Source: a virus
Virus record (IMG/VR): IMGVR_UViG_3300029268_001371
Span: 1 to 30,651 of that record
Reading direction: 5' to 3' (one strand)
Length of the DNA stretch: 30,651 nucleotides
Shown: in pieces, positions 1,844-28,352 of the stretch
Layout: each line of letters begins with the position of its first letter
How positions within the stretch are numbered: position 1 is the stretch's first letter
Notes under the pieces: model-generated
What the model saw: the letters and a program-made list of their open reading frames with translations, nothing else
Told to the model about the DNA's origin: nothing
The model's database searches: none
Translations under genes and position numbers: made by a program

Positions 1844-1886
1844 AGGGGTGAATTGAATTAAATAAAAGGTTGAAGGAGTTGGAATA

Positions 1887-3229: not shown

Positions 3230-3233
3230 AATT

Positions 3234-3632
3234 ATGTCAGATTACCATATTTCAAATAAATTATTTAAACATTTAAAAATAAAATGCAATCGTTGTAATT
3301 CAGAAAAAGATTTAAGATTACATCATATTGATAGAAACCCAAGCCATAATTTTGAAAAAAATATTGAAGTGCTTTGCAGAAGATGTCACCAATTAGAACA
3401 TGGGAAAAAATATGTTTGTAAATATTGTGGGATAAAGTTTAATAGAGAAGGGCACGGAGGAACTAAATTTTGTTCATATAAATGTTATTGGAAATCAATG
3501 GAAGGAGCAAAACAAAAACACATTAAAAAGAAGTGTGCTTATTGTAGAAAAACTTTTTTTGGTTATGTTCAAAAAAAAGATTGTTCTTATTCTTGTAAAA
3601 ATAAAAGAGTTAAAGCAAATAAGAAGCTTTAA
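3234..3632 (+). CDS. HNH endonuclease with two extra zinc fingers
   Basis: The 132-residue protein starts with an HNH nuclease core: CNRC (C18, C21), LHHIDRNPSHNFEKNIEVL, then CRRCHQLEH, with the His pair at 30-31, Asn at 43 and His at 52/56. Two treble-clef-like fingers follow, CKYC...FCSYKC and CAYC...CSYSC. Such free-standing HNH proteins in viruses are often mobile homing-type nucleases; DNA processing for packaging is the alternative but less likely this far from the terminase. ATG 3234 is preceded by GAGGTA. It interrupts a run of sugar-modification genes, consistent with insertion as a selfish gene. Confidence 0.85.
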   Translation: MSDYHISNKLFKHLKIKCNRCNSEKDLRLHHIDRNPSHNFEKNIEVLCRRCHQLEHGKKYVCKYCGIKFNREGHGGTKFCSYKCYWKSMEGAKQKHIKKKCAYCRKTFFGYVQKKDCSYSCKNKRVKANKKL

Positions 3633-3678
3633 ATACAAGATATGGTGTAATAGTTGTAATACAGAAATTGGTGGTAAA

Positions 3679-4581
3679 ATGAAAACAATAGCATTCGTGG
3701 GAATGATGCATTATTTTAAATGCACGATTCCAAGACAACTTCCTGGATTTAAAATATATGAAATCAACGTAACTTATGAATACAACGATCCAACCAGATA
3801 CCAAGCTTGTCTTGAATTGAACGAAAAAGAAAAGATTGATTACTGGGTGTTTTTTAGAGGAGAATATGTTCCTCAAGAAATAATGTGTTCTCTTCAAGGA
3901 AAGAAAATAAATATTTCTACTGAACCTCTTGGTAGAGAGGATATTCAAAGAATGTATCTTGGAGCCAACAAACCTTTTTTCTTAGAGCATTTTAAACAAT
4001 TTGATTATTTTACTCACTATGATTTTACTGAGATTAATAACTTAAAAATACAAGGATTCAATGTTGATTCAGCATTTGCTTTGCCTGTAGATGTTGATAC
4101 TTACAAACCAGTTAATTTAAAGAAACTTTGGGACGTTGTTTTCTTAGGAAGAGGGACTACGAGAAGAAATTGTGCTATGGGCCCAATTAAGAAAGACTTT
4201 AATGTGCTACATATTGACAATGGTTGTTTTGATGATGAAGCGGTTAGAGTTTATAATATGTCAAGAATTGGTTTGAATATGAATGTAGCAGGATTTCCTC
4301 AGAACCAACATAGAGTTTTCAATATGATGGCTTGTGGATTACCAATCATTTCTGATAAGATGAGTCATACTGATTGGCTTAAACCTGATGATGAGAAATA
4401 CTTTGAATTTATGTCAGATTTGGACGGAGTTAATTTGTATAAAAAAGTAGAAAGTATGTTGGAAGATACTTCAATCCCTTTAAAAATGAGGGGACAAATT
4501 TCAAGAAGAATTGCTGTTAATCAATTTAATGCTTCAAAGAATTGGGCTGGGTTGATTGAAAAAGTGGAGATGAAAGAATGA
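3679..4581 (+). CDS. Glycosyltransferase with GT-B C-terminal domain (CgeB-like)
   Basis: The 300-residue protein carries a C-terminal domain like Glyco_trans_1_2/CgeB proteins: DVVFLGRGTTRRN (about 152-164), VYNMSRIGLNMN (191-202), then HRVFNMMACGLPIISD (211-226), where the late helix normally contacts the sugar nucleotide. The N-terminal half looks like a reduced Rossmann domain. Start ATG 3679 follows GGTGGTAAA; the frame is open further upstream, but that part overlaps the HNH gene. The next gene overlaps as ATGA. It is probably an additional transferase in the same glycan pathway. Confidence 0.78.
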   Translation: MKTIAFVGMMHYFKCTIPRQLPGFKIYEINVTYEYNDPTRYQACLELNEKEKIDYWVFFRGEYVPQEIMCSLQGKKINISTEPLGREDIQRMYLGANKPFFLEHFKQFDYFTHYDFTEINNLKIQGFNVDSAFALPVDVDTYKPVNLKKLWDVVFLGRGTTRRNCAMGPIKKDFNVLHIDNGCFDDEAVRVYNMSRIGLNMNVAGFPQNQHRVFNMMACGLPIISDKMSHTDWLKPDDEKYFEFMSDLDGVNLYKKVESMLEDTSIPLKMRGQISRRIAVNQFNASKNWAGLIEKVEMKE

Positions 4582-4907
4582 GTGAGTGGGAAGAAAATAT
4601 TGGCAGTGGTTTAATACAAATTGAATTAATCCAAGAAAATTTAACTAAATTGAATAAGGATTTAGATAATGCAAGAAAGTTAATTAGAAAAGGATTTGAA
4701 AAAAATTATAATGAAACAAAAAATAATGAAAATTCTTATGCTAAAAGAATAGCATATGTTGCTGTTTTAATTGGGGCAGGAAAAAATGATGAGGAAATAA
4801 TTAAATTATTAAAGGTTAAATTTCCTACAGTTAGATTTGATGATGATTTATTAAAACATCACATAAAAAAACTTAAAGAATCAGGAATTAAGGAGATGAA
4901 ACAATGA
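4578..4907 (+). CDS. Hypothetical helical protein
   Basis: The 109-residue protein is not recognised. It is rich in Lys, Glu and Asn. The N-terminal part (about residues 10-50) has the heptad-like spacing of a coiled coil. The C-terminal half, from AKRIAYVAVLIGAGKNDEEIIKLLKVKFP, resembles a small helix-turn-helix by spacing (GKNDEEIIKLLK), but this is only suggestive. It overlaps both neighbours by ATGA, so it is translationally coupled within the cassette. Confidence 0.6.
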   Translation: MSEWEENIGSGLIQIELIQENLTKLNKDLDNARKLIRKGFEKNYNETKNNENSYAKRIAYVAVLIGAGKNDEEIIKLLKVKFPTVRFDDDLLKHHIKKLKESGIKEMKQ

Positions 4908-5089
4908 ACTGGATAGCTGAATTAGGAATAATATTATTCACTTTCAATGCTTTAGCAGGTATCAATACTGCGGTATTATTAGCAATAATATACTTGCTTT
5001 GGGGTGCAATAAAAACAATCACAACTTATAGAATGGCTGTTAAAATAATGGGGCGGTGTTGCAATGGCATTAAAAGAAATAAGAAATGA
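4904..5089 (+). CDS. Small membrane protein
   Basis: The 61-residue product has a long hydrophobic stretch at about residues 4-37 (GIILFTF ... AVLLAIIYLLWG), enough for one long or two short membrane spans, and a basic C-terminus (KIMGRCCNGIKRNKK) that probably stays in the cytoplasm. It starts in an ATGA overlap with the upstream gene and overlaps the downstream gene by 26 bases. Function is unknown; a holin-like or membrane-anchor role cannot be tested from sequence alone. Confidence 0.6.
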   Translation: MNWIAELGIILFTFNALAGINTAVLLAIIYLLWGAIKTITTYRMAVKIMGRCCNGIKRNKK

Positions 5090-5432
5090 AGAGTGGATAG
5101 ACAAAACTGACAAGAAGTTTGTATATCATCAAATCAGAGAAGTGTTGCTTGATGATGAAGATTTGTTAGCTTTGATTACAAGAGAAAAAACAAAGCTTGA
5201 TGAATTATCTAATCAAATATCTTCAGCTAAAGCAGGTATTCAAAAGATAAACACTTTCTTGTCAAAGAACAAGAAGTTTGTTGATATTGCTAAGAAAAGA
5301 GATGCTGAAAGATTCTGCGAAAAGTGTGGAATGGATTTCACTCTTGATGCAAATAAGAAATTAGTAAGTAATAAAACTATAGAACCTTACAAAATATTGT
5401 GCAAGAATTGTGCTGCAAAAGAGGGATTGTAA
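5064..5432 (+). CDS. Coiled-coil protein with C-terminal zinc ribbon
   Basis: The 122-residue protein has a central helical segment (about 45-75, LDELSNQISSAKAGIQKINTF) and a C-terminal pair of CxxC knuckles (CEKC and CKNC) spaced about 25 residues apart, the layout of a zinc ribbon. Start ATG 5064 follows GGCGGTG, which explains the 26-base overlap with the membrane protein gene. The stop overlaps the methyltransferase start (TAATG). It is possibly a nucleic-acid or protein-binding adaptor; function is not recognised. Confidence 0.65.
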   Translation: MALKEIRNEEWIDKTDKKFVYHQIREVLLDDEDLLALITREKTKLDELSNQISSAKAGIQKINTFLSKNKKFVDIAKKRDAERFCEKCGMDFTLDANKKLVSNKTIEPYKILCKNCAAKEGL

Positions 5433-5908
5433 TGTTTGATGTCCGTTTAAAAGGTAAAAGAATTTCGCTTGGTGGTGGAGAGTTTCCTAAAGCTGGGTTT
5501 GTGAATATTGATAATTCAACCATTAATCCTATAAACGGACACCACTATACTCCTGACATTTTGCACGATTTGAATGAAGGGATTCCTTTTCCTGATTCGT
5601 TTATTGATGAAGTAGAATGTAGTCACTTTATTGAGCACGTTAAAGATCCAGTTTTTTTGATGAATGAGATTTGGAGAGTTTGTAAGAATGGTTCAAAGGT
5701 TCAAATTGTTTGTCCTGTTCATGACATGGTTCCAGGACATTTGACTGATATGTCTTTTGATTGGTTTGAGAAGAATGTTTCTAAAGATAAGTTTGATTTA
5801 GTCAGCCATAAAGAATACCCTAAACCAGTTACTGATCCAATATATGGTGATAGGACTTTTGTTGAATTAAATTTAGAATTTGTGGTGAAAAAATGCACAA
5901 AAGAATAG
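5432..5908 (+). CDS. SAM-dependent methyltransferase (class I, type 11-like)
   Basis: The 158-residue protein has a glycine-rich SAM motif near the N-terminus (ISLGGGEFPKAGFVNID, about residues 11-27). It continues with HDLNEGIPFPDSFIDEV and SHFIEHVKDPVFLMNEIWRVCKNGS, the post-motif typical of type-11 methyltransferases (EHV..P...L.E..RVLK.GG). It is short for the family, as is common for virus copies that modify sugars or small molecules. It starts at the TAATG overlap. The gene ends in TAG, with a TAA seven codons later, so the amber here behaves as a stop. It probably methylates a glycan or its precursor. Confidence 0.82.
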   Translation: MFDVRLKGKRISLGGGEFPKAGFVNIDNSTINPINGHHYTPDILHDLNEGIPFPDSFIDEVECSHFIEHVKDPVFLMNEIWRVCKNGSKVQIVCPVHDMVPGHLTDMSFDWFEKNVSKDKFDLVSHKEYPKPVTDPIYGDRTFVELNLEFVVKKCTKE

Positions 5909-6138
5909 AGCGTTACCACGCTATTGTAATGTTTGCAAGAGCCGTTAAAAGAACTAAAATGTTTTGGAGTGTTAATGAGTTGCTTGAGTATTGGCGACAC
6001 TCTGATTTTCCTTTCCCTAAAGTTAAAAGAATAACTACTTCTAAGTGGTCTTTTTGTCATTGTTTTTCTTCAGCAGCTAAAAAAATAAAATTGAAGAGAG
6101 TGTTTGAGAAAGATATTTTAATTGGTTATGGTGGTTAA
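5893..6138 (+). CDS. Hypothetical basic protein
   Basis: The 81-residue protein is not recognised. It is rich in Lys, Arg and aromatic residues (WSVNELLEYWRHSDFPFPKVKR). Start ATG 5893 lies after GGTGAAAAA, inside the end of the methyltransferase gene (16-base overlap). It abuts the next gene directly (TAA then ATG). Its basic charge would fit a nucleic-acid-binding role, but no domain is visible. Confidence 0.6.
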   Translation: MHKRIERYHAIVMFARAVKRTKMFWSVNELLEYWRHSDFPFPKVKRITTSKWSFCHCFSSAAKKIKLKRVFEKDILIGYGG

Positions 6139-7149
6139 ATGGATTCAGTAGCGTATGTATTACCTTCACTCTATCCGAGTGGTGGAAACAAAATGTGTGT
6201 TGAACACGTTAAAAGATTAGCTAAGAGAGGACGCATTGCTGTTGTTTCTATTGTGTCAAGACACAAAGATGATGATGAGAAGTGGCTTGATCTTGAAGGA
6301 GTTAAAATAGTTCCTTTTACTAAGGTTGAGTTGGACAAATATTCTAATGTTGTTGCAACTTATTGGGAAACTTATTATTATATTGAAGCCCTTAAATTAG
6401 TGGGGCCGAGATTTAGTTACTTTGTTCAATCAAAGGAAGAGGATTTTGAAGGAGAATTCATTAGAAAGCAGAGGGTTTTATTTACTTTGATGGATAGGAA
6501 GTATCATATTTTTACTGAAGCTAAGTGGATTCAGTTGTATTTGAAGGAATTGTTGCAAAGAGAATCTGTTCTTGTTCCAAATCATATTGAATTGCCTTTA
6601 AATTTGGATCTCGTGAAGAAGAAAAGAAACAAACCGATTTTGTTAATTGAGGGAGAAGCTACTGCTGTTTGGAAGAACATAAATTTTGGAGCAAGGGTTT
6701 CACAAATGCTTAGGAATGAGTTTGAGTGTTGGCTTTTAACTTCAACAAAATACAATAAGATTTCTCCTCATATCTTTGGTTCATTTGACAAGATTATTCA
6801 AGGTGTTTCTTGGAGAGAAGCTCTTGAAACTATTGCTCAAGCAGATATTTTGTATAGACCTTCTACTCTCGAAGGTTTTAATGGAGCTATTTCAGAAGCT
6901 ATGGTTCTTGGAATCCCTACGGTTTCTAACAAGATCCCTGCAGGGTATGAAGTTGGAATTAATGGTTGGAATTGTTTAATGGTTGAACCAAATGCACTTT
7001 GGGAAACTATTGGAGCAATAAAACGCCTTAAAATAGATTCAGAACTAAAGGAAACAATTGTAAAGAATGCTCTTGAAACGAGTAAGAGTTTTACTGATTG
7101 GGATAAGTCAATTGATATCTTAGAAAATAATGTGTTTTGTTTAGTGTAA
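6139..7149 (+). CDS. Glycosyltransferase family 4-like (GT-B)
   Basis: The 336-residue protein has both GT-B halves. The N-terminal Rossmann part is AYVLPSLYPSGGNKMCVEHV, where the SGG loop normally contacts the acceptor or diphosphate. The C-terminal donor-binding part has ILLIEGEATAVWKNINFG and the E-x7-E signature in STLEGFNGAISEAMVLGIP (E245 and E253), followed by AGYEVGINGWNCLMVEP. This is a full-length, probably retaining, transferase. It is the last gene of the plus-strand cassette, ending 43 bases before the convergent operon. Confidence 0.88.
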   Translation: MDSVAYVLPSLYPSGGNKMCVEHVKRLAKRGRIAVVSIVSRHKDDDEKWLDLEGVKIVPFTKVELDKYSNVVATYWETYYYIEALKLVGPRFSYFVQSKEEDFEGEFIRKQRVLFTLMDRKYHIFTEAKWIQLYLKELLQRESVLVPNHIELPLNLDLVKKKRNKPILLIEGEATAVWKNINFGARVSQMLRNEFECWLLTSTKYNKISPHIFGSFDKIIQGVSWREALETIAQADILYRPSTLEGFNGAISEAMVLGIPTVSNKIPAGYEVGINGWNCLMVEPNALWETIGAIKRLKIDSELKETIVKNALETSKSFTDWDKSIDILENNVFCLV

Positions 7150-12330: not shown

Positions 12331-12429
12331 ATGGCCGTTCTTGAAAAAAGAATCCGTGAGCTGGAGTTTGGACTATTGTACAAATGTAGCTTAACACAAA
12401 CCGACCACTGCATTGATATTTATGGGTAG
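12331..12429 (+). CDS. Leaderless 32-residue ORF opening the late module
   Basis: ATG 12331 sits where transcription should begin from the TATA box at 12298. The product begins MAVLEKRIRELEFGLLYKCS and holds Cys19 and Cys26. Codon use is richer in C and G than its neighbours. It ends in TAG within an eight-base overlap with the next gene. It may be a real micropeptide or a leader that couples translation of the next gene. No function is recognised. Confidence 0.5.
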   Translation: MAVLEKRIRELEFGLLYKCSLTQTDHCIDIYG

Positions 12430-13618: not shown

Positions 13619-14250
13619 TAATAGATTCTAACGATTTCGTAATGGGTGACTTCAAACACCATTTGATTGAGGGTTATACTGTAAAACCTCTTGATTGTGG
13701 TGATTTCATGTTTGAGCTTAATGGTGGTCCTTTAATCTTTGAAAGAAAAACCGTTGGGGATTTTATGCAGTCTTTGAATTCTCATCATATTCATACCCAA
13801 TTAATGAAGATGCAGGAACTTACTCCTTACAATTATATCATTATTGTTGGCAATGTAAATAAATTCTTCATAGAGTCAGAGTTCTATACTAAAAAACAAT
13901 TTCTTGGTGGAATTGCTAATTTGTCTTTACATGGGGCAAAGATATTATTTGTTGATAATAATGAACAAATGTGTGATTTAATGTATTGTATGGCTGAAAA
14001 GTTTGCTTCGAAGGACAAACCAATTCTTATTGAACAAGATATTGTTTTTAAGAAAAGAGAGGTTTCTCCTTTGGTTAAGGTTCTTATGAACATTGAAACT
14101 ATTGGTGTGGAGAAAGCAGAAATAATTGCTACTAAATATACATCATTACAAACAATTTCTTTAGCAATTGAGGAAAATTCTTTTTATGTTAATTCAATTG
14201 GACCTAAATCCATTGAGAAGATTAAAAAATTCTTGGACGAGGTTTTGTGA
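13615..14250 (+). CDS. XPF/ERCC4-type structure-specific nuclease with helix-hairpin-helix tail
   Basis: The 211-residue protein has the hallmark catalytic motif ERKTVGDF (E43-R44-K45, D49), preceded by MIIDSND (D4, where the family has DxRE-like residues) and CGDFMFE. The C-terminal 55 residues form a tandem helix-hairpin-helix-like region (NIETIGVEKAEIIATKY ... NSIGPKSIEKIKKF). This is the archaeal Hef/XPF nuclease layout without the helicase domain. It cuts branched or flap DNA. Its start overlaps the small terminase and its stop the large terminase (TGATG), suggesting that it clears branches before or during packaging. Confidence 0.88.
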   Translation: MIIDSNDFVMGDFKHHLIEGYTVKPLDCGDFMFELNGGPLIFERKTVGDFMQSLNSHHIHTQLMKMQELTPYNYIIIVGNVNKFFIESEFYTKKQFLGGIANLSLHGAKILFVDNNEQMCDLMYCMAEKFASKDKPILIEQDIVFKKREVSPLVKVLMNIETIGVEKAEIIATKYTSLQTISLAIEENSFYVNSIGPKSIEKIKKFLDEVL

Positions 14251-15623
14251 TGCTTTCACTTAAGGCTTTCGCTTTTCGTATAATAGGGTTGTCACTCGCA
14301 CCTTTTCACAGAGATATGTGTGATTTAATAGAAAACAATCGTCACGTTGTTATAATGGCTCCTCGTCAGCACGGTAAGTCAGAAATTGGTTCTATTGCTC
14401 AAGCTTTGTGGAGGGCGTACTATGCAGAGAAGCCAATCAAAATAGTTATTGTTTCTAATATTGATTTGCAGTCAGGGAAGATTCTCGCAAGAATTCGTGA
14501 TTTGATTGAAACTAACCCAGCTCTTCGTTCTGTTTTAATGCCCGATAACATTTACAAAGAAAAGTGGGCTGCAACTATGCTTCATTGCAAAAATGGTGTT
14601 ACTATTGAAGGTTATGGTCTTTCTCCTAAAATCAGAGGATTACCAATTAATCACTTGATTTTAGATGATGTTCTTAGAGATGATACTGGAAGCACTTCTA
14701 AAACAAAGAAGTTGTTTCGTGAAGTAGTTCTTCCTACAATTAATGCAACTAAGGGAACTCTTTCTGTTGTTGGTACTCCTCAGTCAAAAGTTGATTTGTT
14801 ACACGATTTGCTTGAGAAAGATAATGGTTGGGCTAAAGCTCGTTATCAAGCAGTTTCTTTGAATCACGATGGTTCTTGGAAAGATCCTTTGTGGCCGAGA
14901 GCAGGTAATCTTGGTTACACTATTGATGAATTAAAGAAAATCCAAGCAACTATGGATTCTGTTTCTTGGTCTAAGGAAATGATGTGTAATCCTGTTTCAG
15001 GGAGCGCTTCGCTTTATCCTTGGGATTTAATTAAAGATTGTATTATTGAGGGGCTTGGAGAATCAGGAATAACTAATCCTAACTCTGCTTATTACTTAGG
15101 CGCTGATGTTTCTGTTTCAAGTAACCCTAATGCAGATTTTTCGGTTTTTACTGTAGCAGAACAGAGTGGAAAACAACCTCTTCGTATTGTTCATATTATT
15201 AGAGTTCCTGGAAAAACTATTGACGAGCAAGGGAGCATCATCAGAGAACTTGACAAGAAGTACAATTTCAGTCGTTGCCTTGTTGAACAGAATGGAATCT
15301 CTTATGATTTTGTTAGAACTATGCAAAAGGATCCGCAACTTGGTAGAAAAGTCGAAGGTTTCTTAACTACACACAAAAACAAAGAAAGGATTCTTGGGGC
15401 AGTAGAAATATCTTTCAGAAACAAAAACCTTTTCATTCCTAAAAACGAAACACTTATTGAAGAATTGCTTAACTTTGGTATTAAGGAGAGAGAAGATCAC
15501 TTTGGGGGCAAGACACAATCTTATGAAGGACTTGGTTCTCACGATGATTGTGTAATGTCTTTAGCTCTTTGTGTAGAGTGTGCTTCAAGTGGTTTGGTTA
15601 AATCAACTCTTTCTTTCTTGTAA
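14250..15623 (+). CDS. terL: Terminase large subunit
   Basis: The 457-residue packaging motor has an N-terminal ATPase with Walker A APRQHGKS (about 37-44), Walker B HLILDDV (about 135-141) and the coupling motif SVVGTPQS (about 172-179). The C-terminal RNase H-like nuclease shows GADVSVSS with ADF (D286, D296), LVEQNGISYDF, and GSHDDCVMSLAL (acidic pair near 441). Length and order match tailed-virus TerL. ATG 14250 overlaps the nuclease stop as TGATG; a GTG three bases earlier is also in frame. It cuts concatemeric DNA and pumps it through the portal. Confidence 0.95.
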   Translation: MLSLKAFAFRIIGLSLAPFHRDMCDLIENNRHVVIMAPRQHGKSEIGSIAQALWRAYYAEKPIKIVIVSNIDLQSGKILARIRDLIETNPALRSVLMPDNIYKEKWAATMLHCKNGVTIEGYGLSPKIRGLPINHLILDDVLRDDTGSTSKTKKLFREVVLPTINATKGTLSVVGTPQSKVDLLHDLLEKDNGWAKARYQAVSLNHDGSWKDPLWPRAGNLGYTIDELKKIQATMDSVSWSKEMMCNPVSGSASLYPWDLIKDCIIEGLGESGITNPNSAYYLGADVSVSSNPNADFSVFTVAEQSGKQPLRIVHIIRVPGKTIDEQGSIIRELDKKYNFSRCLVEQNGISYDFVRTMQKDPQLGRKVEGFLTTHKNKERILGAVEISFRNKNLFIPKNETLIEELLNFGIKEREDHFGGKTQSYEGLGSHDDCVMSLALCVECASSGLVKSTLSFL

Positions 15624-15656: not shown

Positions 15657-15666
15657 GCTTATATAC
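15657..15666 (+). promoter_or_regulatory. Archaeal TATA-box promoter of the portal gene
   Basis: GCTTATATAC (TTATATAC at 15659-15666) is centred about 25 bases before ATG 15687. There is no Shine-Dalgarno between box and start, so the message is probably leaderless. Confidence 0.7.
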
Positions 15667-15686: not shown

Positions 15687-17252
15687 ATGGCCGATATAGA
15701 GCGAACGTCAGTTTCAAACTCTTTGATTGATAATTACTCTCCTAATGTAGATGGGCAAGAGAAACCATCGAAAATTGCTGTTGAAAACTATTATGTTTGG
15801 TTACAGAAGATGCCTGAAGTAGCGGGCGTAGTAGGAGCAATTTGTAATGATATAATGGGTGACGGATTTGAATTTAGAGGGGAATCCAAAGCAGGAGTTA
15901 AAGCTGCTCAAGAATTTGTAAGATAGAACCATTTTACTAAAAAACTTTATTCTACTCTTCAAGATTATGTTTTGCTTGGAGATGCTTACTTAGGTGTAAG
16001 AATTATCCAAGAATCTTATATTAACAAAATGATTGAAGGAACAAGTATTATTGATGATTTACAGAAATGTGATTTGCAAAAAGATGATTTGATTAGCAAA
16101 CTTAAAATAAGAGATCCTGATTTATTTTTCCCAAGAGAGATTTTTCCACTCAAAGCAACTACAATTTATCCTAACTATGATGAACACGGTAGAATAAAAG
16201 AATACATTCAGAAAGTTAATGGTAATTCTAAAAAAGTTTCTTTCTCTCCATTTGAAGTTATTCACTTCTCCTTGAATAACATTGGAAATGATGTGTTCGG
16301 CTCTACCCCGTTAGCTTCTTGCCTTAATGATATAGCAACTCTTTGGTATGCTAAAGATTATGCCGGCACATTTTTCCAAAACGATGCTACTCCTGATAAA
16401 ATATATGTTCTTAAAAATACTGCTCCTAATAGTGCAGAGTATGATGAGTTCAAAAAACAAATTGAGAAATTCAAGAATTCTAAGAACAAGCATAAGTCAA
16501 TGGTTATGACTGGTGAAGTAGAAGTTCAGAATGTTAATGAGTTCAACAAAGACTTAGAATTTTCCACTCTTATTGACAAATTCACTCAGAGATTAAGAAT
16601 GGCTTGGAATATGCCTGGTTCTCGTTTAGATGACACTGGTAAATCAGGTACAAACAAATCTGCTGAAGCTGGGTATTATAAAAATATTAATAGAATGCAA
16701 TCAGAAATAGAGGAAACTCTTAATGCTGAACTTTGGTCAAGATTTGGTGACATTGAAATGATTTTTAAGAAAGCTTACAAGAGAGATGAGTCTATTGAAG
16801 CAGATATAATTACAAAAACTGTTGGAAAACCAGTAATGACACAAAATGAAGGAAGAGAATATCTTGGTTACAAACCACTCCCTGATGCTAAGTATGATGA
16901 AATCCAAGATGATTTCAAAGAAAATCCAGGTGGTCAATTACCTGACACAAAAGAAGGCGAAGAGGTTGGAAACCAACATAGACTTGCTCAAAAGATGGAG
17001 AAAAGAAATGTTGTTGTTCTTGATAATTTTAGAAATTTTAAAAGTATTGTTGAAGCTGATGGAAGAACATTTATGACTGCTAAAGTTTTCTGTAATGAAG
17101 ATTCTGACAAATTTACTTTTGTGTTTTCAGATAGTGTTGGGACTTATGAGTGCTCTGTAATGAAATCAGAAATACAAGATGAAAAAGATTTTAGATTCCA
17201 ATATGTTAATTATTCTATGAGTGGAAAATTGAAGAGTATTGTTGAGGTGTGA
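15687..17252 (+). CDS. Portal protein, interrupted by an in-frame TAG at codon 80
   Basis: The frame encodes 521 codons if TAG at 15924-15926 is read through. Residues 1-79 end KAAQEFVR; after the TAG the same frame continues NHFTKKLYSTLQDYVLLGDA with about 441 codons to TGA. The joined product follows the portal pattern: a helical N-terminus, a D-x-x-L-x-G-D-A-Y core strand, then FEVIHFSLNN, and the clip/crown part NAELWSRFGD. Position directly after TerL supports portal. No ribosome site or ATG lies close after the TAG (TTG 15972 and ATG 16029 lack one), so a separate downstream start is unlikely. Options are amber suppression, pyrrolysine or other recoding, or a nonsense mutation. The last 150 residues go beyond the usual portal core. 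Confidence 0.8.
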
Positions 17253-17254
17253 TA

Positions 17255-18337
17255 ATGGGTGACACACTCTACGAGGAAATAAAACTTTCTCGTGATGATT
17301 TAGAAAGAGATAAATTCGTTGGTTATTCTGATGGAAAAGTAGCTACAAGAACAATTTCTACTGTTGTACAACCAACAGGAACTAATCTTCATTCTGTTGT
17401 TGATTCAGGATTTTTACAAATAAAAGATCAGTATGGTTTTGCTGCAGAAAATACTCCAATGGACGAAGTAAGAGTGGCTGAAGCAACAAGACTTGTTGGA
17501 ACTATTTTTGAAGGAACTACTATTGACACAAACTTTTGGACAGCAACTCTTGCAAACAATGGTACTGCCACCCAAGCAAGTAATCAAATAACTCTTGGGA
17601 GTTCAACAGCAAACAATGGAAGTTCTATTTTGCAAACTACAAGAAAAGCAAGATATGTTGCAAGTATTTCAAATAGGTTTAGGGCGCAAGTTCAATTAGG
17701 GGATACTGGTGTCACTGGTAATACAAGAAGATGGGGTTGCTTTGATGGTACTGATGGAATGTATTTTGAATTAGCAGGAATAGTTTTATCAGCTTGTGTT
17801 ATGAAAGCAGGTGTTAGAACTTTGGTTTTGGCTTTAAACACTCCAACAACAAATATTACAAGTTACGAAATATATTATACTAATTCAAAAATTTATTTTG
17901 TTATGGGTGGTGTTTTAGTTGCTACTCATAATGCGACAACAGCTACTTATTCTGACACTTTAACTCTTCCTGTTAGAATTGATAATATTAATTCAGGAAG
18001 TACAACTAATTCGACAATATTAGTTAGGGTAGCAAGTATTACAAGACTTGGGAAACTTGAAACAAATCCTACTTACAAAAATATGACGGGAATAAGTTCT
18101 TCAACTATTCTAAAATATGGTGCAGGAATGCTACACAATATAATAGTTGGGACACCAGTAAATAACGCAACCATTGCTGTTTATGATAATACTACAGGCA
18201 CTGCTAATCCAATAAGTGTATTTACATTACCAAATTTAGCAAGTCCAATGAACATTGATTTCCATTGTCCATTCAGTAACGGGCTAAATATAGTTCCAAG
18301 TTCAACAGGTTTGAATTTAACAATAGTTTATGAATAA
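17255..18337 (+). CDS. Beta-rich virion surface or tail protein
   Basis: The 360-residue protein has a helical, charged N-terminus (MGDTLYEEIKLSRDDLERDK). A long Thr/Asn/Ser-rich beta region follows, including a segment (about 90-270, TNFWTATLANNG ... RFRAQVQLGDTG ... GMYFELAG ... KIYFVMGGVLVATHN) with the strand order of a concanavalin-like lectin or sugar-binding sandwich. A second small sandwich lies near the end. ATG 17255 follows GAGGTG. It is the first gene of the adhesin block after the portal. A role in host-surface or capsid-surface binding is inferred. Confidence 0.65.
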   Translation: MGDTLYEEIKLSRDDLERDKFVGYSDGKVATRTISTVVQPTGTNLHSVVDSGFLQIKDQYGFAAENTPMDEVRVAEATRLVGTIFEGTTIDTNFWTATLANNGTATQASNQITLGSSTANNGSSILQTTRKARYVASISNRFRAQVQLGDTGVTGNTRRWGCFDGTDGMYFELAGIVLSACVMKAGVRTLVLALNTPTTNITSYEIYYTNSKIYFVMGGVLVATHNATTATYSDTLTLPVRIDNINSGSTTNSTILVRVASITRLGKLETNPTYKNMTGISSSTILKYGAGMLHNIIVGTPVNNATIAVYDNTTGTANPISVFTLPNLASPMNIDFHCPFSNGLNIVPSSTGLNLTIVYE

Positions 18338-18346
18338 GCTTAAATA
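18336..18346 (+). promoter_or_regulatory. AAGCTTAAATA promoter before the baseplate genes
   Basis: This 11-base element is identical to one before the capsid protease gene (26359-26369). Its TATA-like part is centred about 38 bases before ATG 18381, leaving a short leader that contains AGGAAGGG as ribosome site. Confidence 0.6.
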
Positions 18347-18380
18347 ATATGAAAACAAATATTTTGTAGGAAGGGATTGT

Positions 18381-18740
18381 ATGACTGATTTAAAAATATA
18401 CCGAGGAGATAACAAGACTTGGGTTCTAACATTCAAGGATTCGGTAGGCGCAGCAATAGATATAACTGGCTACACAATCTTTTTCACAGTAAAAAATAAG
18501 CAAACTTATATTGATTCCATAACAGATACCACTGACGGATTAATACAAAAAACAGTTACTTCTCACACTACTCCTGCTTCGGGTATTTCAGCATTAAGTT
18601 TAGTTCCTGCTGACACTTCTTCTTTGGCTCCAACTAACTATATTTATGATATGCAATTAAAGGACGGTGCAGGAAAAATATTAACTTTTATCGAAGGTAA
18701 TTTTGAAATAATAGCTGATGTAACAAGGAGAAGCGTATGA
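18381..18740 (+). CDS. BppU-N-like baseplate/fibre adaptor
   Basis: The 119-residue protein starts MTDLKIYRGDNKTWVLTFKD and continues DSVGAAIDITGYTIFFTVK, the pattern of the N-terminal domain of phage baseplate upper proteins (RGDxxxWxLxFxD ... G..IDLTG.T..F.VK). In phages this sandwich attaches receptor-binding fibres to the tail. Ribosome site AGGAAGGG. It overlaps the next gene as ATGA, a likely partner. Confidence 0.7.
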   Translation: MTDLKIYRGDNKTWVLTFKDSVGAAIDITGYTIFFTVKNKQTYIDSITDTTDGLIQKTVTSHTTPASGISALSLVPADTSSLAPTNYIYDMQLKDGAGKILTFIEGNFEIIADVTRRSV

Positions 18741-20143
18741 CTGATGATATCAACGTGGTTTTCTCTGAAGAGGAAATTAATGTTACAGTTGCTGATGAGC
18801 AAACAATAGATGTCACTATTGAAGGCGGAGTTGTTGAACAGATAGAGTGGGGAACCATTACGGGGACTCTTTCTAATCAAACTGATTTGAAAGCAGAACT
18901 TGACAACAAATTAAATCAACCTTCCATTTATAATTTAGATACTGAAACATTAACTCTGGGTGTTGGATTAATCCATTCTTTTATTAGAGTAGGAAATTCT
19001 TTGTTTGGTGGAAGTAGAACTTCTCCGCCAACTATTACTAAAATAATTGATGCAAACAATATGGTTACTGGTGGAACTGAAGTAATTACTTTAACAGGAA
19101 AAACTTATTGTGAATCAGTAACCTACAATGAAACAACTAAAAAACTTTATTTTTTGTTAGTGAATGAAATTCTTGAATTAGATCCTGATACAATGGATTA
19201 CACTATTTTTCCAATAACAATGACTGGTGGGACTGGCGGGAGTGGGGCAATTACAAATGACGGAACTTATTTTTATGTTACAAGTTATGTGCTTCATTCA
19301 AAGGTTGCGAAGTTTTCTTTTAACGGAACTGCATTTACAAATATTGGTGAAGCATCAATGGTTTATGTTTCTTTAGAAGTTGGGTATGGTCACTCTGCGC
19401 AGTATGATAAAGATAGTGGTTACTTGTTTGTTTGTGGTGCTGAATCTCCTGGTTGGGTTGCGAAAGTAAATGTTAGTGATATGTCTTTTACTTTGATAAG
19501 ACTTGCTGGTGGAAATGTAACAATTTCTGATGATATTGCAGTTGCTCCTGATTATGTTTATGGGGTTCTTGAAGGGCCACCACAATACAAGATTTTGAAG
19601 GTTAAAAAATCTGATATGAGTTATACTTACATAGATCCTGGAATTGCTGTTTCTGGGTATGGTTGTATTTACAATCCGTATGACAGATGTGTTTATACTG
19701 TTTATAATACAAATCCTGGAAGTTACATAAAAATAAATGATAGCACAGGGGAAATGAGATTATTCACTGCACCTACAGGAATTGGTGGAATGAATGAATT
19801 ACAATTTAGTGAATATAATATGTGGCACACAACTTGGACTACTCCTGCAAAAGTTATTAGATTAGCTAATCCAAGTGAGAGATATGTTAGAATTTTAAAA
19901 GCTGATAATTCTATTGGTTATTCTTACAACGAAGGAGCAGTTGTTGCGGATAGTTTTGCTGGTAGTGGTGCTGGTTTAACAAATATTGCTGTTGGGAATA
20001 ATGGGGAATTACAATACAAGAATGGAACTGCGTTTGATAGCAATACTAAATTAGTTTATGATGAAACCACAAATAGTTTTACTGAAGGAAATTTAAAATA
20101 CTTATATATGGGTAGTAAAGTAGGTGTGTTTGTTTATGGTTAA
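18737..20143 (+). CDS. Tail fibre-like protein with beta-propeller-like centre
   Basis: The 468-residue protein opens with a short acidic strand region, then EWGTITGTLSNQTDLKAELD, a linker common in phage tail fibres. Residues about 70-380 contain repeated four-strand units (KLYFLLVNEILELDPDT, TYFYVTSYVLHSKVAKF, GYLFVCGAESPGWVAKV, CVYTVYNTNPGSYIKI), as in a beta-propeller. The C-terminus (GSGAGLTNIAVGNNGELQYK) returns to fibre-like sequence. Probable receptor-binding protein. The next gene overlaps as ATGGTTAA. Confidence 0.7.
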   Translation: MTDDINVVFSEEEINVTVADEQTIDVTIEGGVVEQIEWGTITGTLSNQTDLKAELDNKLNQPSIYNLDTETLTLGVGLIHSFIRVGNSLFGGSRTSPPTITKIIDANNMVTGGTEVITLTGKTYCESVTYNETTKKLYFLLVNEILELDPDTMDYTIFPITMTGGTGGSGAITNDGTYFYVTSYVLHSKVAKFSFNGTAFTNIGEASMVYVSLEVGYGHSAQYDKDSGYLFVCGAESPGWVAKVNVSDMSFTLIRLAGGNVTISDDIAVAPDYVYGVLEGPPQYKILKVKKSDMSYTYIDPGIAVSGYGCIYNPYDRCVYTVYNTNPGSYIKINDSTGEMRLFTAPTGIGGMNELQFSEYNMWHTTWTTPAKVIRLANPSERYVRILKADNSIGYSYNEGAVVADSFAGSGAGLTNIAVGNNGELQYKNGTAFDSNTKLVYDETTNSFTEGNLKYLYMGSKVGVFVYG

Positions 20144-22478
20144 TATTTCAAGTTGGACTGAATTGAATGCTGCAAGAAATCAGCCTTACGAATCATTTAC
20201 TCTTATAGCAAATCTTAAAATTACTGATGCTGATTACAATGGAATAGGGAATGCTTGGGCTCCTTTGTGTTACGATTATCAAGGTACATTTAATGGTAAC
20301 GGACATTATATTGAAGGATTAAGTGCTCCTTTATTTGGCTCTTTGTATATTTGTGTTGTGACAAAATTAGGATTAAAAGACATAAGTATTTCTGGTGCTT
20401 CTGGTGGATTGGCTAATGGGGCAATGTATAGTACAGTGGATAATTGTTGGGTAACTGGGACAATTTCAGGAGCAAATGTTGGTGGATTAATTGGGGAAGG
20501 ATATTATTGGGTAGGGATAACTAATTGTTATGCAAATGTAACTGTGACTGGTAGTGGTACTGCGGGGGGATTGATGTCTTATTCCCCAGTTGAAATAGTA
20601 AATTGTTTTTCAACAGGAAATGTTACTGGAAGCACAGTTGGTGGATTAATAGGTTCAGCAGATGTTGCTCCAACTAATTGTGGTTGGGTAACTACAACTG
20701 CAACTAATGCTATTGGAAGTCTTGGTGGAAGTCCTGCTAATGTTACTTATAATGAAGCAACTCTTACTCCTTATTATTTTAGTTCTCACGGAGTTTTTTC
20801 TGCTTGGGATTTTGTTAGCACTTGGCACACAAATACTGGCGCATTGCCTACTTTGAACCCAATAGGTACTACTCCAACTACTCCTGTTTTATCATTTACA
20901 TTATCTACTGATTCTTCAGTAACATTGGTTTGGACAGCAAGTACAACTGTTGGTGGAGAAATGATTGGTTATAAGATTGAAAGAGCTTTGGCAGGTGGAA
21001 CTTTTTCTGTGCTTGTAGCAAATACTGGGAATTTAAATTTGACTTACACAGATTCTTCTACTACAACAAAAACAGAATATGATTACAAAGTAACAGGATT
21101 AGCTTACGGTACTTCTTCAGCAGTATCAAATGTAGTCAGAGCTATTGCAAAAAATGCAGCTCTTAAATTTTTAGCTGATGGTATTGAAGTTCCAACTTCT
21201 CAATTTGTTTATTATGGAGATCCAAATACTGATGGAAGTTTAAGAGAATCAAATAATGGTACAACATTATTGCTTCAAAAAAGAGTTAATGGTTCTTGGG
21301 TTGAAACAACAAGTGATGAAGTTGATCCAGTATTTACTGCGCACCCTGCTTATGGATTAACTACGCAAGATATGATTGACATTGGTAATTTAAGTGGGAC
21401 TAATACTGGGGACCAGGTTTTGCCAACAAGAGATTCACTTGGGCTTGATACTGATGACACAGTAACTTTTGCTAATCTTTCAGGAACTAACACAGGTGAC
21501 CAAACTCTTCCTGTTAATTCTGATTTTAATTTATCTGATTTGGGTGATGTTGATGACACTGATAAAGCCGAAGGAAAAATATTAAAAGTAGATTCTGAAG
21601 GAAATCATGTTTATGTTACTGATGAAAGTGGAACAGATGAAAAAGTAAAATATGATGTTAGCGACCAAACAGCAGGTTATATTGCAGATAAGTTTGTTGC
21701 AGGAAGTGGAATATCTTTAGCTGAAGGAACTGGTGCTGATGAGAATAAATTAAAGATTACTAATTCAGGAGTTGTTACTGAAACTGACCCTGTGTATAGT
21801 GGTTCTCAAGCAGCAAATATTACAGCAACTGATATAACTAATTTAGGAAATTTAAGTGGGACTAATACTGGTGACCAAGATTTATCAGGTTATTTATTAT
21901 TAGACCAAACAACTCCTCAAACTTTTTCAGCAGGAACAGTAACAGGAAGCGGATTACTAAATGTTTCAAGCGGAACTATAGGACTTGATACTAATACTTA
22001 TTTGCCTACTGGTGGGTGGTATGATACTGACCAATATAATATTAATATTTCAGGATTTAATAACGATGCAGGTTACTTGGTTTATGGAAGCACTATTAGT
22101 TATGCTGAAAGTGCAGGTTATGCGTATAGTTCTGATTATGCAAATAGTGCAAATTATGCAAATAATGCAGGTTATGCTGGCACTGCAGGAACAGCAAACT
22201 ATTATGCTGAAACTGACCCTTTGTCTTTGCATACTTCAGGAGATAACACTACAGGATTAACTATTGAACTTCAAACTACAGGAAAGATTACAGGGGAAAT
22301 GGCTAAAGTAACTACTGATGCACCAAGTACTCAAAAAGGAGATTTATGGTTAGACACTGACGAACCAGCACCTACCCCTGTAGCTGACGGAACTTATACT
22401 ATTGGTTTAGGTTCTACTCAAGACGGAACAATTACAGTATTGAATGGAATAATTACAGCAATACAGGAAGTGATTTGA
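20136..22478 (+). CDS. Long modular tail fibre or adhesin with GLUG-like, fibronectin III and fibre repeats
   Basis: The 780-residue protein has three parts. Residues about 20-210 carry beta-helix repeats with GGLIG/GGLMS turns like GLUG adhesin repeats (VGGLIGEGYYW, AGGLMSYSP, VGGLIGSAD). Residues about 250-345 form a fibronectin type III-like domain (TPVLSFTLSTDSSVTLVWTA ... YKIERA ... YDYKVTGLAYG). The rest has fibre-shaft repeats, including three copies of NLSGTNTGDQ, a Tyr-Ala-rich segment, and TQKGDLWLDT. The start at 20136 follows TAGGTG. It is the largest gene seen and a strong candidate for a host-recognition fibre. The reading frame is intact. Confidence 0.8.
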   Translation: MVNISSWTELNAARNQPYESFTLIANLKITDADYNGIGNAWAPLCYDYQGTFNGNGHYIEGLSAPLFGSLYICVVTKLGLKDISISGASGGLANGAMYSTVDNCWVTGTISGANVGGLIGEGYYWVGITNCYANVTVTGSGTAGGLMSYSPVEIVNCFSTGNVTGSTVGGLIGSADVAPTNCGWVTTTATNAIGSLGGSPANVTYNEATLTPYYFSSHGVFSAWDFVSTWHTNTGALPTLNPIGTTPTTPVLSFTLSTDSSVTLVWTASTTVGGEMIGYKIERALAGGTFSVLVANTGNLNLTYTDSSTTTKTEYDYKVTGLAYGTSSAVSNVVRAIAKNAALKFLADGIEVPTSQFVYYGDPNTDGSLRESNNGTTLLLQKRVNGSWVETTSDEVDPVFTAHPAYGLTTQDMIDIGNLSGTNTGDQVLPTRDSLGLDTDDTVTFANLSGTNTGDQTLPVNSDFNLSDLGDVDDTDKAEGKILKVDSEGNHVYVTDESGTDEKVKYDVSDQTAGYIADKFVAGSGISLAEGTGADENKLKITNSGVVTETDPVYSGSQAANITATDITNLGNLSGTNTGDQDLSGYLLLDQTTPQTFSAGTVTGSGLLNVSSGTIGLDTNTYLPTGGWYDTDQYNINISGFNNDAGYLVYGSTISYAESAGYAYSSDYANSANYANNAGYAGTAGTANYYAETDPLSLHTSGDNTTGLTIELQTTGKITGEMAKVTTDAPSTQKGDLWLDTDEPAPTPVADGTYTIGLGSTQDGTITVLNGIITAIQEVI
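21387..21878 (+). repeat. Three copies of a 30-bp NLSGTNTGDQ-coding repeat
   Basis: Copies lie at 21387-21416, 21474-21503 and 21849-21878; the first and third differ by only two bases. The peptide is a well-known tail-fibre shaft motif in phages. The repeats could allow recombination between fibre genes. Confidence 0.85.
22101..22213 (+). repeat. Tyr-Ala-rich short tandem repeats in the fibre gene
   Basis: The segment codes for YAESAGYAYSSDYANSANYA and continues in the same style, with degenerate units built on TATGC-n-AATAGTGCA. Low-complexity shaft of the long fibre. It also produces spurious open frames on both strands. Confidence 0.8.
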
Positions 22479-22967
22479 ATGGCAGTATTGAAAGTGTATG
22501 ACGGAAGTAATTGGGTTAATATTGCAGGTCCTGGACTTGTTGGTCCTCAAGGTCCAACTGGTAGTTATCCAAGAAGCTTACAATTCAACGCTGACCTTAG
22601 AGGTATGTGGCTAACTACTCCTTATTGGAAACTCGTTGATATGAATAGAGGTGCTCTTAGTTTTCCAAGTGGAATAACAATTACAAGTTGGTATGTTGAT
22701 TGTAGCAGTGCTGACCCCACTACAGAATTAAACGCTAATTTAAAGTATTGTGATGCAAGTGGAACAGGAGCTTTTCCAGGAGCAAATCCTGTTTTGATAG
22801 ATGCTCTTGATACTACTACTGGTAATTCAAGCAGAACTGATATGAGTGGAAGTGCTTTAGGTAGTGGAGTAATTCCTGCAAATAAAATTATTTATTTAGA
22901 ACTTGATGCAAACCCAGTTGATTTAGGAGTAATGTGGTATATCACAATAAATTTTGAGGCGTTATAA
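22479..22967 (+). CDS. Fibre-tip-like protein with short collagen-like stretch
   Basis: The 162-residue protein begins MAVLKVYDGSNWVNIAGPGL, a common opening of phage fibre tips, followed by a short collagen-like GPQGPTGS. A beta-rich C-terminal domain (about 35-162) includes MWLTTPYWKLVD and LDANPVDLGVMWYITINFEAL. The gene starts directly after the previous stop. Probably part of the receptor-binding complex. Confidence 0.65.
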   Translation: MAVLKVYDGSNWVNIAGPGLVGPQGPTGSYPRSLQFNADLRGMWLTTPYWKLVDMNRGALSFPSGITITSWYVDCSSADPTTELNANLKYCDASGTGAFPGANPVLIDALDTTTGNSSRTDMSGSALGSGVIPANKIIYLELDANPVDLGVMWYITINFEAL

Positions 22968-22968
22968 C

Positions 22969-24552
22969 TTGGCTAATAAATATTTAAGTGCTTCGCTTGG
23001 TACAAGACAATGGGCAGATACTACAGGAACTTGGGTAACGAGTAATGGAGGAACAACTCCAACAACACCACCTGCAGGAAGTGACACTGCTTTTTTAACT
23101 TCGTTAAGTGGAGCAGTAACAGTAAATACTGCAGGTTGTATAACTGCAATAATTAATTGTACTGGTTATACAAATACATTAACAATTAATTCATCTTGTA
23201 AATTGCTTTGTTATGCTTCAATTATTTTTCCAGCAACAATGACTTTAGTAAATAATGGTAATTTAACTTGGGGAGATGGAGCAAGTGTTGGAGATATTAA
23301 TAGTGCAATAGATATCCCTGGTAATTTTACTTTTGGCGGAAGTGGTAATTCTACAAGAACAATAAGTGCAAACCTTACTTTACTTGGAGCAGTAACTATG
23401 ACTGGACAACAGAAAGTAAATGGAGCTTTTAACATTTATATCAAAAATGGTTTTGAAGGAAATGGAAATATTTTTGATGGTACTTGTTCTATTTATTTAC
23501 AAGGCGGACAACTTGGAGCAAGATTTGCTAATAGTAATGTTTATTTAGACGGGACACTTACTACAAGAGCTCAAGCAAGTGCTACTTTTGGTTATTTTGG
23601 TTTTGGTTGGGTTAGTGCTTGTACGGTTACTTGGTTAAGTGGAACTCTTACAAACACAAACACTTTTACTGTTTTTAGTGGTCTCACAAGTTTCAACATT
23701 GGGAGTAATGTAGTTTTTTACAGAGTAAAGTTTAATGAAAATACTGCTTACACTTACACTTTACTTGCAGATTTATATGTAACCGATATTCTTACTGAAT
23801 ATCTTAGTGCAAACATTGCTATCACTATAGATGGAGCTTTTAATATAAAGGTTGCTGGGAATCTTAGAAGTTATACTGCAAGTACTTATTATTCTACTTA
23901 TTTTAAAGGAACTGCTACTTTTGAAATGGTTGGAACTGGAACTCTTGGACTTGCACAAAATTATGCTGGTTCAGGCTCTGTTAAAGCAATTACTTATGTT
24001 GAAAACAATATTATAATTAACACTGCAGGAACTATTACTTTTGGAAACATTGGTATAAGTGGAAGTAATACTCTTACTTATACAGCAGGAACTATTGCAG
24101 GGACAGGTGAAATTTATATTGTTGGAACTGCAAGTCTTACAGGAACAGTTACTTATCCAAATGTAACAATAGGTTTTCTAAACAAAGGAGAATCAAGTTA
24201 CTTTACTGGTCCTTTTGTTTTAAATGTTTTAACAGATATGACTTTTACAAACTTATATATTAATTATAATTCAACAATGAATATTACTGATACAAAGACT
24301 TTAACTATTCCAACTACTTTTCATTCAAGAGGAAACTATTTAGCTAACAATGTAATCGCTTCAAGTGGAACAGGAACAATTACTTTCAATGGTGCTAAAG
24401 GAAGTCTTGATTTAGTAAAAACAGATTTCACAAACATAAGTGCTACAAATAGATTAATTACTTATGGTGGGACTATTACTACTTCAACTTTAGTTAATTC
24501 AGTAGATGTGACAGATTTGAGCTCTCCAAGAAATACTGTGTTGGTGGTTTAA
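22969..24552 (+). CDS. Beta-helix-like adhesin A (TTG start)
   Basis: The product is 527 residues from TTG 22969 (MANKYLSASLGTRQWADTTG), chosen because the next gene has the same LANKY opening at a TTG. GAGGCG lies about 10 bases upstream. The sequence is Thr/Ser/Asn/Gly-rich with repeated short strands (GTITFGN, TLTYTAGTIAGTGEIYIVG), the look of a right-handed parallel beta-helix adhesin. It is a paralogue of the following gene: both share the start, a Cys-bearing TGYTNTLT turn and an end with NxxATNRL/NIVSTNRL. Host-surface or glycan binding is inferred. Confidence 0.7.
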   Translation: MANKYLSASLGTRQWADTTGTWVTSNGGTTPTTPPAGSDTAFLTSLSGAVTVNTAGCITAIINCTGYTNTLTINSSCKLLCYASIIFPATMTLVNNGNLTWGDGASVGDINSAIDIPGNFTFGGSGNSTRTISANLTLLGAVTMTGQQKVNGAFNIYIKNGFEGNGNIFDGTCSIYLQGGQLGARFANSNVYLDGTLTTRAQASATFGYFGFGWVSACTVTWLSGTLTNTNTFTVFSGLTSFNIGSNVVFYRVKFNENTAYTYTLLADLYVTDILTEYLSANIAITIDGAFNIKVAGNLRSYTASTYYSTYFKGTATFEMVGTGTLGLAQNYAGSGSVKAITYVENNIIINTAGTITFGNIGISGSNTLTYTAGTIAGTGEIYIVGTASLTGTVTYPNVTIGFLNKGESSYFTGPFVLNVLTDMTFTNLYINYNSTMNITDTKTLTIPTTFHSRGNYLANNVIASSGTGTITFNGAKGSLDLVKTDFTNISATNRLITYGGTITTSTLVNSVDVTDLSSPRNTVLVV

Positions 24553-24553
24553 T

Positions 24554-26116
24554 TTGGCTAATAAATATGCAGTTGGAAGTGGTAATTGGAATAGTGCTAC
24601 TCTTTGGAAAACTTCTTCTGGTGGTTCTACGGCTACTACTCAACCAACATCTTCTGACACAGCTTATCTTGATGCAAATTCAGGAGCAGTTGCTATAAAT
24701 GCTACAACTTGTGGTGCTAATTCAATAATTTGTACAGGATATACAAACACTCTTACTTTTACTGCTGGACAAACATTAACTATTGCAAATGGAGCAATAA
24801 CTTTTGTATCAACTATGACTATTGCTGGAAGTGGTAAATTAAAAGTTGGAACATCTCCTGCTGTTACATATACTTCTGGGGGAATAGCGATATCAGGAGA
24901 TTTCGAATGTTCAGGTGGTTCTGGTGCTAAAACTCTTTCAGGAGCTTGGATAATAAATGGTTTATTTATTTCAACAGGTACAGAAAAGACTGTTTTTAAC
25001 GGAAGTACTCTTAGATTAAATGGAGGAATAACTTTAGGACAAAGTGTTGATGGAACTACAGTTGCTACAATAGCTGGAGGAACATTAAGTTCTACTAACG
25101 AAAGTGCAGGTTGGGGTTTAACAACTTCTTATGCAGGAACTATTACTATAGGGAATTTTGGGTTTCAGAAAGGAACTCATACTTATTCAAGTGGTACTGT
25201 TACCGTAACTGCAGGAACTACGCAATACTTAGTTGGAGGAAACGATTCAACAGCTATATTTAATTTTGGAACAAACATTAGATTTCAGAACTGTAAAGTA
25301 ACTGGTAATCGTTCAAATGCAAGAGCAACAGGAACTCTTTATATTGATGGAAATTATGATTTTGCAGGAGATGGATATCATTCTATAGCAAGTGGAACTA
25401 TTGCTATCGCAGGAAGTATAATTAATTCAGCAGGACTTGTTGCTTCACTTTTTGGTGCTGGAACTTGGTTACTTAGTGGAACTGGAAGTGTTTGTGGAAT
25501 AACTCTCGCAACAAACATGACTATTAATACTACAGGAACTATTACTTTCCTTTCAACAGGTTTTATTAGACATAGTTATTTAACAAGTACAAGAATATTT
25601 ACTTATACTGCAGGAACTGTTGTTGTTGAAACAGGACATAAATTAATTAGTGGTGCAACAAGCGTTTATATTAATTCAGGGAGTATTAATTGGGACGAAG
25701 TTTATTTTGGAGTAAGTGATACAAATACTATTATTTATTTGACTGGAAACTTTGTTTGTAACAAATTAAATGTTTCTCCTTTTGCTTATTTTTATTTGCC
25801 TGCTAGTTTAACTCCTTATGAAAGAGGTTATTCAGTAAGTTTAAGAATTTACAACACTTACACTTTAACAGTAAAAACTTCTATGAATTGTTTTAGAGGA
25901 AAAGCAGGTTGTGGGATTAGAAGTAATTCAGGAACTGCTTATTTAGATTATCAAGGAAATATTGCTAATATGGATATTTCTAATGTTGATTTTGCAAACA
26001 TTGTTTCAACAAATAGGTTATATTCTTACTATGGAACAGCAAGTGTTTGGTCAAATGTTTTTGTGTTTAAAGAGTATGATGTGCTTGATGCAGGAATGAG
26101 TATGACTTTTATTTGA
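24554..26116 (+). CDS. Beta-helix-like adhesin B, tandem paralogue (TTG start)
   Basis: The 520-residue protein opens MANKYAVGSGNWNSATLWKT at TTG 24554 after GGTGG. It parallels adhesin A along its length: TGYTNTLTF near residue 60, repeated TAGTxxV strands, and SNVDFANIVSTNRLYSYYG at the end. The two genes are one base apart. Duplication followed by divergence gives two receptor-binding options or a heteromeric fibre. Confidence 0.7.
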   Translation: MANKYAVGSGNWNSATLWKTSSGGSTATTQPTSSDTAYLDANSGAVAINATTCGANSIICTGYTNTLTFTAGQTLTIANGAITFVSTMTIAGSGKLKVGTSPAVTYTSGGIAISGDFECSGGSGAKTLSGAWIINGLFISTGTEKTVFNGSTLRLNGGITLGQSVDGTTVATIAGGTLSSTNESAGWGLTTSYAGTITIGNFGFQKGTHTYSSGTVTVTAGTTQYLVGGNDSTAIFNFGTNIRFQNCKVTGNRSNARATGTLYIDGNYDFAGDGYHSIASGTIAIAGSIINSAGLVASLFGAGTWLLSGTGSVCGITLATNMTINTTGTITFLSTGFIRHSYLTSTRIFTYTAGTVVVETGHKLISGATSVYINSGSINWDEVYFGVSDTNTIIYLTGNFVCNKLNVSPFAYFYLPASLTPYERGYSVSLRIYNTYTLTVKTSMNCFRGKAGCGIRSNSGTAYLDYQGNIANMDISNVDFANIVSTNRLYSYYGTASVWSNVFVFKEYDVLDAGMSMTFI

Positions 26117-26359: not shown

Positions 26360-26369
26360 AGCTTAAATA
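26359..26369 (+). promoter_or_regulatory. AAGCTTAAATA promoter of the capsid maturation genes
   Basis: Identical to the element at 18336-18346. The TATA-like part is centred 26 bases before ATG 26392, so the message is probably leaderless; the in-frame ATG at 26386 is too close. Confidence 0.65.
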
Positions 26370-27440: not shown

Positions 27441-28352
27441 ATGGTTGATATTCAAAAAGCAATGAACGAAGCAGCTACAACTGCAGGTGGATATTTCGTT
27501 CCAGATGAACAAGCTAAGTTTTTCTTAGAACTAATGCAGCAAAGTAACACAGCAATACCGCTATGTAGATCATTCACAATGACTACTGACACTTTCAATG
27601 TGCCAACAATTAGCGCAGGTAACACAGCTTACTGGGTAAGTGAAAATGCTGAAATAACTTCAAGTGATGCTACTACTGGTCAAATCCAATTAGTTGCAAA
27701 GAAAGTTGCAGCAATATCTGAAGTATCTACAGAATTAATTGAAGATGCTAACCCTCAGATTGCTCAAGCTTTGAACGAACAATTAGCAAAAGATGTTGCA
27801 ATAGCTGTTGATGAAGCAATCTACAATGGCGGAGTTGGAACATACACTGCATCAGGATTGAACGGATTCAGAGATAGAAGCACATACACTGATATTAATG
27901 CTGTTAATGGTTCAAGTGCAGAAATCACTGTTGCCAAAATCCTTGAAATCAAGAAAATGATTAAAGATGATTACTTCGCAATGGGTGGAGATACAATGGT
28001 AATTAACCCAACAATAGAATACAAGATTATGAACCTTGTTGATTCTAATGGACGACCTTTGTTCTCAGCATTAGACACACAGAACCCATTATACTCTACA
28101 GGAGTGGTTGGAAGAATACTTGGATTGAATGTTGTAGTAACACCAGCAGTTCCAGTTGTATCAAACGTAGCCGACATCATAGTTTTAACTAAAGGTGTTT
28201 CAGGTTACTTCGGTATGAAGAGAGGATTCAACTTCCACAAAGAATATATCATAGAAAAAGATAACTACAAGATCCAAACAAATATGAGAATGGGATTCAG
28301 AGTAGCTTACCAAAAATCTATGGGTATAATCTACGATGTTAAATGTAACTAA
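27441..28352 (+). CDS. Major capsid protein, HK97 fold
   Basis: The 303-residue protein starts MVDIQKAMNEAATTAGGYFV and has HK97-family features. These are a VPDEQAKFF arm; an E-loop-like segment (FNVPTISAGNTAYWVSENAE); the spine helix (EDANPQIAQALNEQLAKDVA then AVDEAIYNG); a central domain with GDTMVINPTIEYKIMNL; and a final strand FRVAYQKSMGIIYD. The strong ribosome site GGAGGAAT lies just before ATG 27441. Codons favour AAC, TTC, TAC and ATC more than the neighbours, as expected of the most highly expressed gene. It forms the capsid shell. Confidence 0.93.
   Translation: MVDIQKAMNEAATTAGGYFVPDEQAKFFLELMQQSNTAIPLCRSFTMTTDTFNVPTISAGNTAYWVSENAEITSSDATTGQIQLVAKKVAAISEVSTELIEDANPQIAQALNEQLAKDVAIAVDEAIYNGGVGTYTASGLNGFRDRSTYTDINAVNGSSAEITVAKILEIKKMIKDDYFAMGGDTMVINPTIEYKIMNLVDSNGRPLFSALDTQNPLYSTGVVGRILGLNVVVTPAVPVVSNVADIIVLTKGVSGYFGMKRGFNFHKEYIIEKDNYKIQTNMRMGFRVAYQKSMGIIYDVKCN

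Follow-up and report, generated by a model that had tools for sequence, protein, structure and literature searches.

The DNA analysed here, called the window, corresponds to an entire IMG/VR record, a linear fragment of 30,651 bases, and in it a portal protein gene carries a TAG codon within its reading frame. The features on which the analysis is centred are the following:

14247..15623, + strand: terminase large subunit gene (phrog_38, E=4e-53), intact and directly upstream of the portal gene
15658..15665, + strand: TATA-like box of archaeal type, CTTATATA, beginning 29 bases upstream of the start codon of the portal gene
15687..17252, + strand: portal protein gene (PHROG and Pfam portal matches, 49 relatives), with TAG at codon 80
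15924..15926, + strand: TAG in frame as codon 80; it corresponds to the final residue of the predicted helix 68-80 and to a variable polar or charged position in relatives
18339-18346 and 26362-26369: TATA-like boxes elsewhere in the window
27441..28352, + strand: major capsid protein gene (phrog_10, E=1.1e-39), intact, used as a control for internal stops

The portal frame opens at ATG 15687, meets the TAG at 15924-15926 (codon 80) and ends at TGA 17250-17252. It stays open for 441 codons past the TAG and encodes 521 amino acids when this codon is read as a residue. Profile searches gave portal matches to phrog_12 (E=1.4e-34), phrog_2662 (E=3.6e-31) and Pfam Phage_portal (E=5.5e-22), and a weaker match to Phage_portal_3 spans the TAG, from residue 38 to 346. 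The match over the portal core is significant and places the gene in the portal family (PF04860/PHROG 12). An in-frame amber codon in a portal gene, with the frame intact after it, had been pointed out in an earlier note made from the letters of this DNA, and both the ORF coordinates and the PHROG and Pfam matches bear this out.

Some other parts of the window are worth describing. Between the portal and the protease and capsid genes there are several large repetitive genes (17249-26116), probably coding for tail-fibre or surface proteins, which is an unusual location; long low-complexity ORFs likewise follow the portal in the related records L009 and L028. At the left end (1-7149), genes for glycosyltransferases, radical SAM proteins and methyltransferases are clustered; they could be involved in glycan or surface modification, and L009 also begins with a glycosyltransferase-like/methyltransferase-like ORF. 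On the minus strand, 9219-10349 matches phrog_1250 (function unknown, E=3.7e-21); distant relatives of this protein occur in Bacteroides phage DAC19 and in large Pseudomonas phages.

Single-protein searches with the portal and the terminase revealed no close kin. An alignment-led search of IMG/VR first found L009, which is 42% identical between residues 5 and 406; the portal relatives finally numbered 49, with identities of 27-42%, many of them in records that also have matching terminase and capsid genes; the terminase-portal order is common to the window, L009, L026 and L027. The site of the TAG is covered by 48 of the 49 relatives and is a sense codon in all of them: Lys in 25, Gln in 13, Glu in 3, Arg in 3, Ser in 2, Ile in 1 and Asn in 1, TAG being found at the aligned position in 0 of 48. 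In a maximum-likelihood tree the window falls inside a clade of 13 rows (the window and 12 relatives, support 100/99), and within these 12 relatives only Lys, Gln or Glu are present at the site. The local motif is FVR*NHF in the window (the asterisk being the TAG), FLRENHF in L009, FLKKNEF in L028 and FLR[K/Q]N.F in most of the others; L009 and L064-L074 read FL(R/K)[K/Q/E]N.F without gaps, L073 being left out because it is without this region. The G-ending codons for Lys, Gln and Glu are one base away from TAG. The single-base change from a sense codon that the earlier note had mentioned as an explanation is therefore consistent with the aligned portals (48/48 sense, with Lys, Gln or Glu in the clade), the nearest relative found being only 42% identical, so that the comparison does not give the codon of the immediate ancestor. 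Sense codons in related viruses, together with a host free of suppressor or Pyl genes, had been named in that note as what would speak against a recoded amber; the first of the two, the sense codon, is found in the relatives.

Internal stops were found in none of the matches, of which 49 are to the portal, 45 to the capsid and 41 to the terminase. Stops in the matches of L010 and L011 were considered as interruptions and rejected, as they are normal TGA ends combined with alignment overrun.

The alignment with the nearest relatives runs across the TAG site without gaps, so that the two halves of the frame are parts of one protein, with nothing inserted there; an intron, an intein or any other insertion at the TAG was rejected for the same reason. 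This also bears on the proposal that translation restarts downstream of the stop, or that the portal works as two chains. An ORF of 426 codons does open at TTG 15972, but no ribosome-binding sequence precedes this codon and no ATG occurs for about 34 codons past the stop, in agreement with what had been noticed before about the lack of both signals soon after the TAG. Besides, the region of the stop is continuous in all the relatives, and the helices flanking the site are both confidently predicted in the AlphaFold2 model, so that restart or split chains are considered very improbable. The model was built with 19 sequences and has a mean pLDDT of 66.5, rising to ~90 locally (without relatives the pLDDT is 35). 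In it, residue 80 is placed at a helix end, which fits a variable position. Since the site tolerates many residues, an amino acid inserted at it would be harmless to the fold, and in this respect suppression of the stop could be accommodated.

One way of obtaining a full-length portal from this frame would be a host that places pyrrolysine, or another residue by means of an amber-suppressor tRNA, at the TAG in part of the translation events. An in-frame TAG within a conserved frame, as is expected for pyrrolysine proteins, is what the portal gene has, and a variable position at a predicted helix end could accept pyrrolysine. There is also a precedent: in 'Ca. M. alvus' the methyltransferases are not the only proteins with predicted in-frame ambers; 16 others have them as well, and for half of these 16 there are homologues in related genomes that lack the amber (PMC4153887). 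Related to this, boxes of the type [TC]TTA[AT]ATA are enriched across the family at ~30 and ~55 bases upstream of gene starts (10 and 14, where ~1 is expected at each position), and no such positional peak before gene starts was found in the family for the bacterial TATAAT. This suggests, from motif positions, that archaea are the hosts of these portal-bearing IMG/VR records as a group, and for this reason pyrrolysine stays conceivable. Some of the relatives come from metagenome 3300035698, which was used in an Antarctic lake study (PMC8542988). Scans of genome contigs revealed no provirus, and no host genome was found.

The use of TAG as terminator argues in the opposite direction. Five of the 43 genes of the window end credibly in TAG (5908, 7891, 10741, 28900, 29850), and in the family 62 of 641 long frames do so (9.7%); thus TAG is not depleted as it is in archaea with a constitutive pyrrolysine system. 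In the archaea thought to express this system constitutively the share of TAG ends is about 4-5% (Methanosarcina) or 1.6% ('Ca. M. alvus') (Borrel et al. 2014, PMC4153887), and smacoviruses thought to infect Methanomassiliicoccales also avoid TAG ends (4.25%; PMC6336856). At the family rate, at least 5 TAG ends in 43 genes have a binomial probability of 0.40, compared with 0.043 at a rate of 4.5% and 0.0006 at 1.6%. The earlier note had counted at least six TAG terminators besides the portal amber, and five of the six that it listed stand; the sixth, at 12429, is probably not a gene end, as it closes a 32-codon ORF without relatives that overlaps a better gene candidate at 12413/12422-12589. 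After the five TAG ends a further TAA or TGA is met 5-16 codons on, within the limit of about 18 codons given previously. Such short extensions were rejected as a special pattern, because they are similar after TAA ends (median 5 codons) and TGA ends (median 10).

The search for other traces of recoding covered 628 kb in 39 records. The portal of the window is the only coding-strand frame split by TAG without a start just after the stop, which is in line with the earlier remark that no other amber here breaks a long conserved frame; the other frames that TAG splits with no ATG close by look like antisense shadows of real genes, and the numbers of frames split by TAA and TGA are similar to those for TAG. 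A single one of the window's roughly 9,900 codons (9,907) is an internal TAG, and no tRNA genes and no Rfam matches were found. The close relatives have one tRNA-Met only, so that neither they nor the window, all of them fragment records, contain a suppressor tRNA with a CUA anticodon, and searches for PylS in the window and 35 related records, likewise fragments, were negative. The missing tRNA and PylS weigh little, because the records are fragments and the virus could use the machinery of its host. Taking into account the single internal TAG, with none splitting a coding-strand frame in relatives, and a frequency of TAG ends higher than reported for constitutive pyrrolysine archaea, pyrrolysine insertion or amber suppression seems unlikely. 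A lower probability still is given to the wider proposal that an archaeal tailed virus relies on the pyrrolysine or amber-suppressing machinery of its host for an essential portal, coupling its assembly to a host that decodes UAG. If suppression were true, an essential structural protein of an archaeal virus would require UAG decoding and host range would be tied to an expanded genetic code.

Programmed readthrough would be a regulatory device yielding a little full-length portal together with an N-terminal product of 79 residues. The frame is certainly intact on both sides of the TAG, but none of the relatives has a stop there or close by, and the RNA downstream of the TAG shows no unusual folding (z = -1.18) that could act as a stimulatory structure. 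Full-length chains make up a portal ring, and the 79-residue product would thus be without obvious use. As a precedent, it has been proposed that purifying selection keeps some in-frame stops in bacteria, genes of mobile elements being over-represented (PMC7918605). Nevertheless, this explanation is regarded as the least probable of those considered.

Very likely, then, the TAG is an isolated nonsense codon, non-programmed and due to a change of one base, this judgement taking together a consensus error and a recent loss-of-function variant. One base of a Lys/Gln/Glu-type codon would have changed to TAG, either recently or as an error of the consensus, and such an origin is proposed because neither the other 441 codons of the frame nor the adjacent head genes are damaged. 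If the change is real, translation would end at 79 residues and no portal would be made, so that the record would represent a dead or minority genome; if it is an error, the true gene would be a normal full-length portal. About 5.3% of random substitutions in the 9,907 codons of the window create a stop, and consequently a lone nonsense site in a record, or one such case among tens of related records, is no surprise and can come from ordinary mutation or error without a special cause. A point against a nonsense change is that the TAG belongs to the consensus assembled for an essential gene, in which lethal variants should be rare. Of the explanations offered previously, the 48/48 sense codons best support a one-base nonsense change (there a recent loss), whereas suppression and pyrrolysine are without positive support. 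A lone in-frame stop in one metagenomic record, missing from 48 relatives, should not be taken for recoding.

Compared with known systems, the gene shares with the portals of tailed viruses (PHROG 12, PF04860; probably archaeal Caudoviricetes) the core match and the position after the terminase, but differs in carrying a stop and in being 42% identical to its nearest relative found. With archaeal UAG decoding as pyrrolysine, known from the methylamine methyltransferases of Methanosarcina and Methanomassiliicoccales, it has in common an in-frame TAG in a long conserved frame and a probable archaeal host; here, however, the TAG is unconserved in relatives, TAG is a usual terminator and no pyl genes are seen. 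In phages with reassigned TAG (such as those with genetic code 15, TAG = Gln), in-frame TAG codons are numerous and a suppressor tRNA is often present. The window resembles them in having TAG where some relatives have Gln, but its lone internal TAG and lack of tRNA set it apart. No difference was found with respect to the ordinary amber mutations or consensus errors of metagenome-assembled viral genes, which the portal gene resembles in the one-base step, in being otherwise intact and in having a stop that is missing from relatives.
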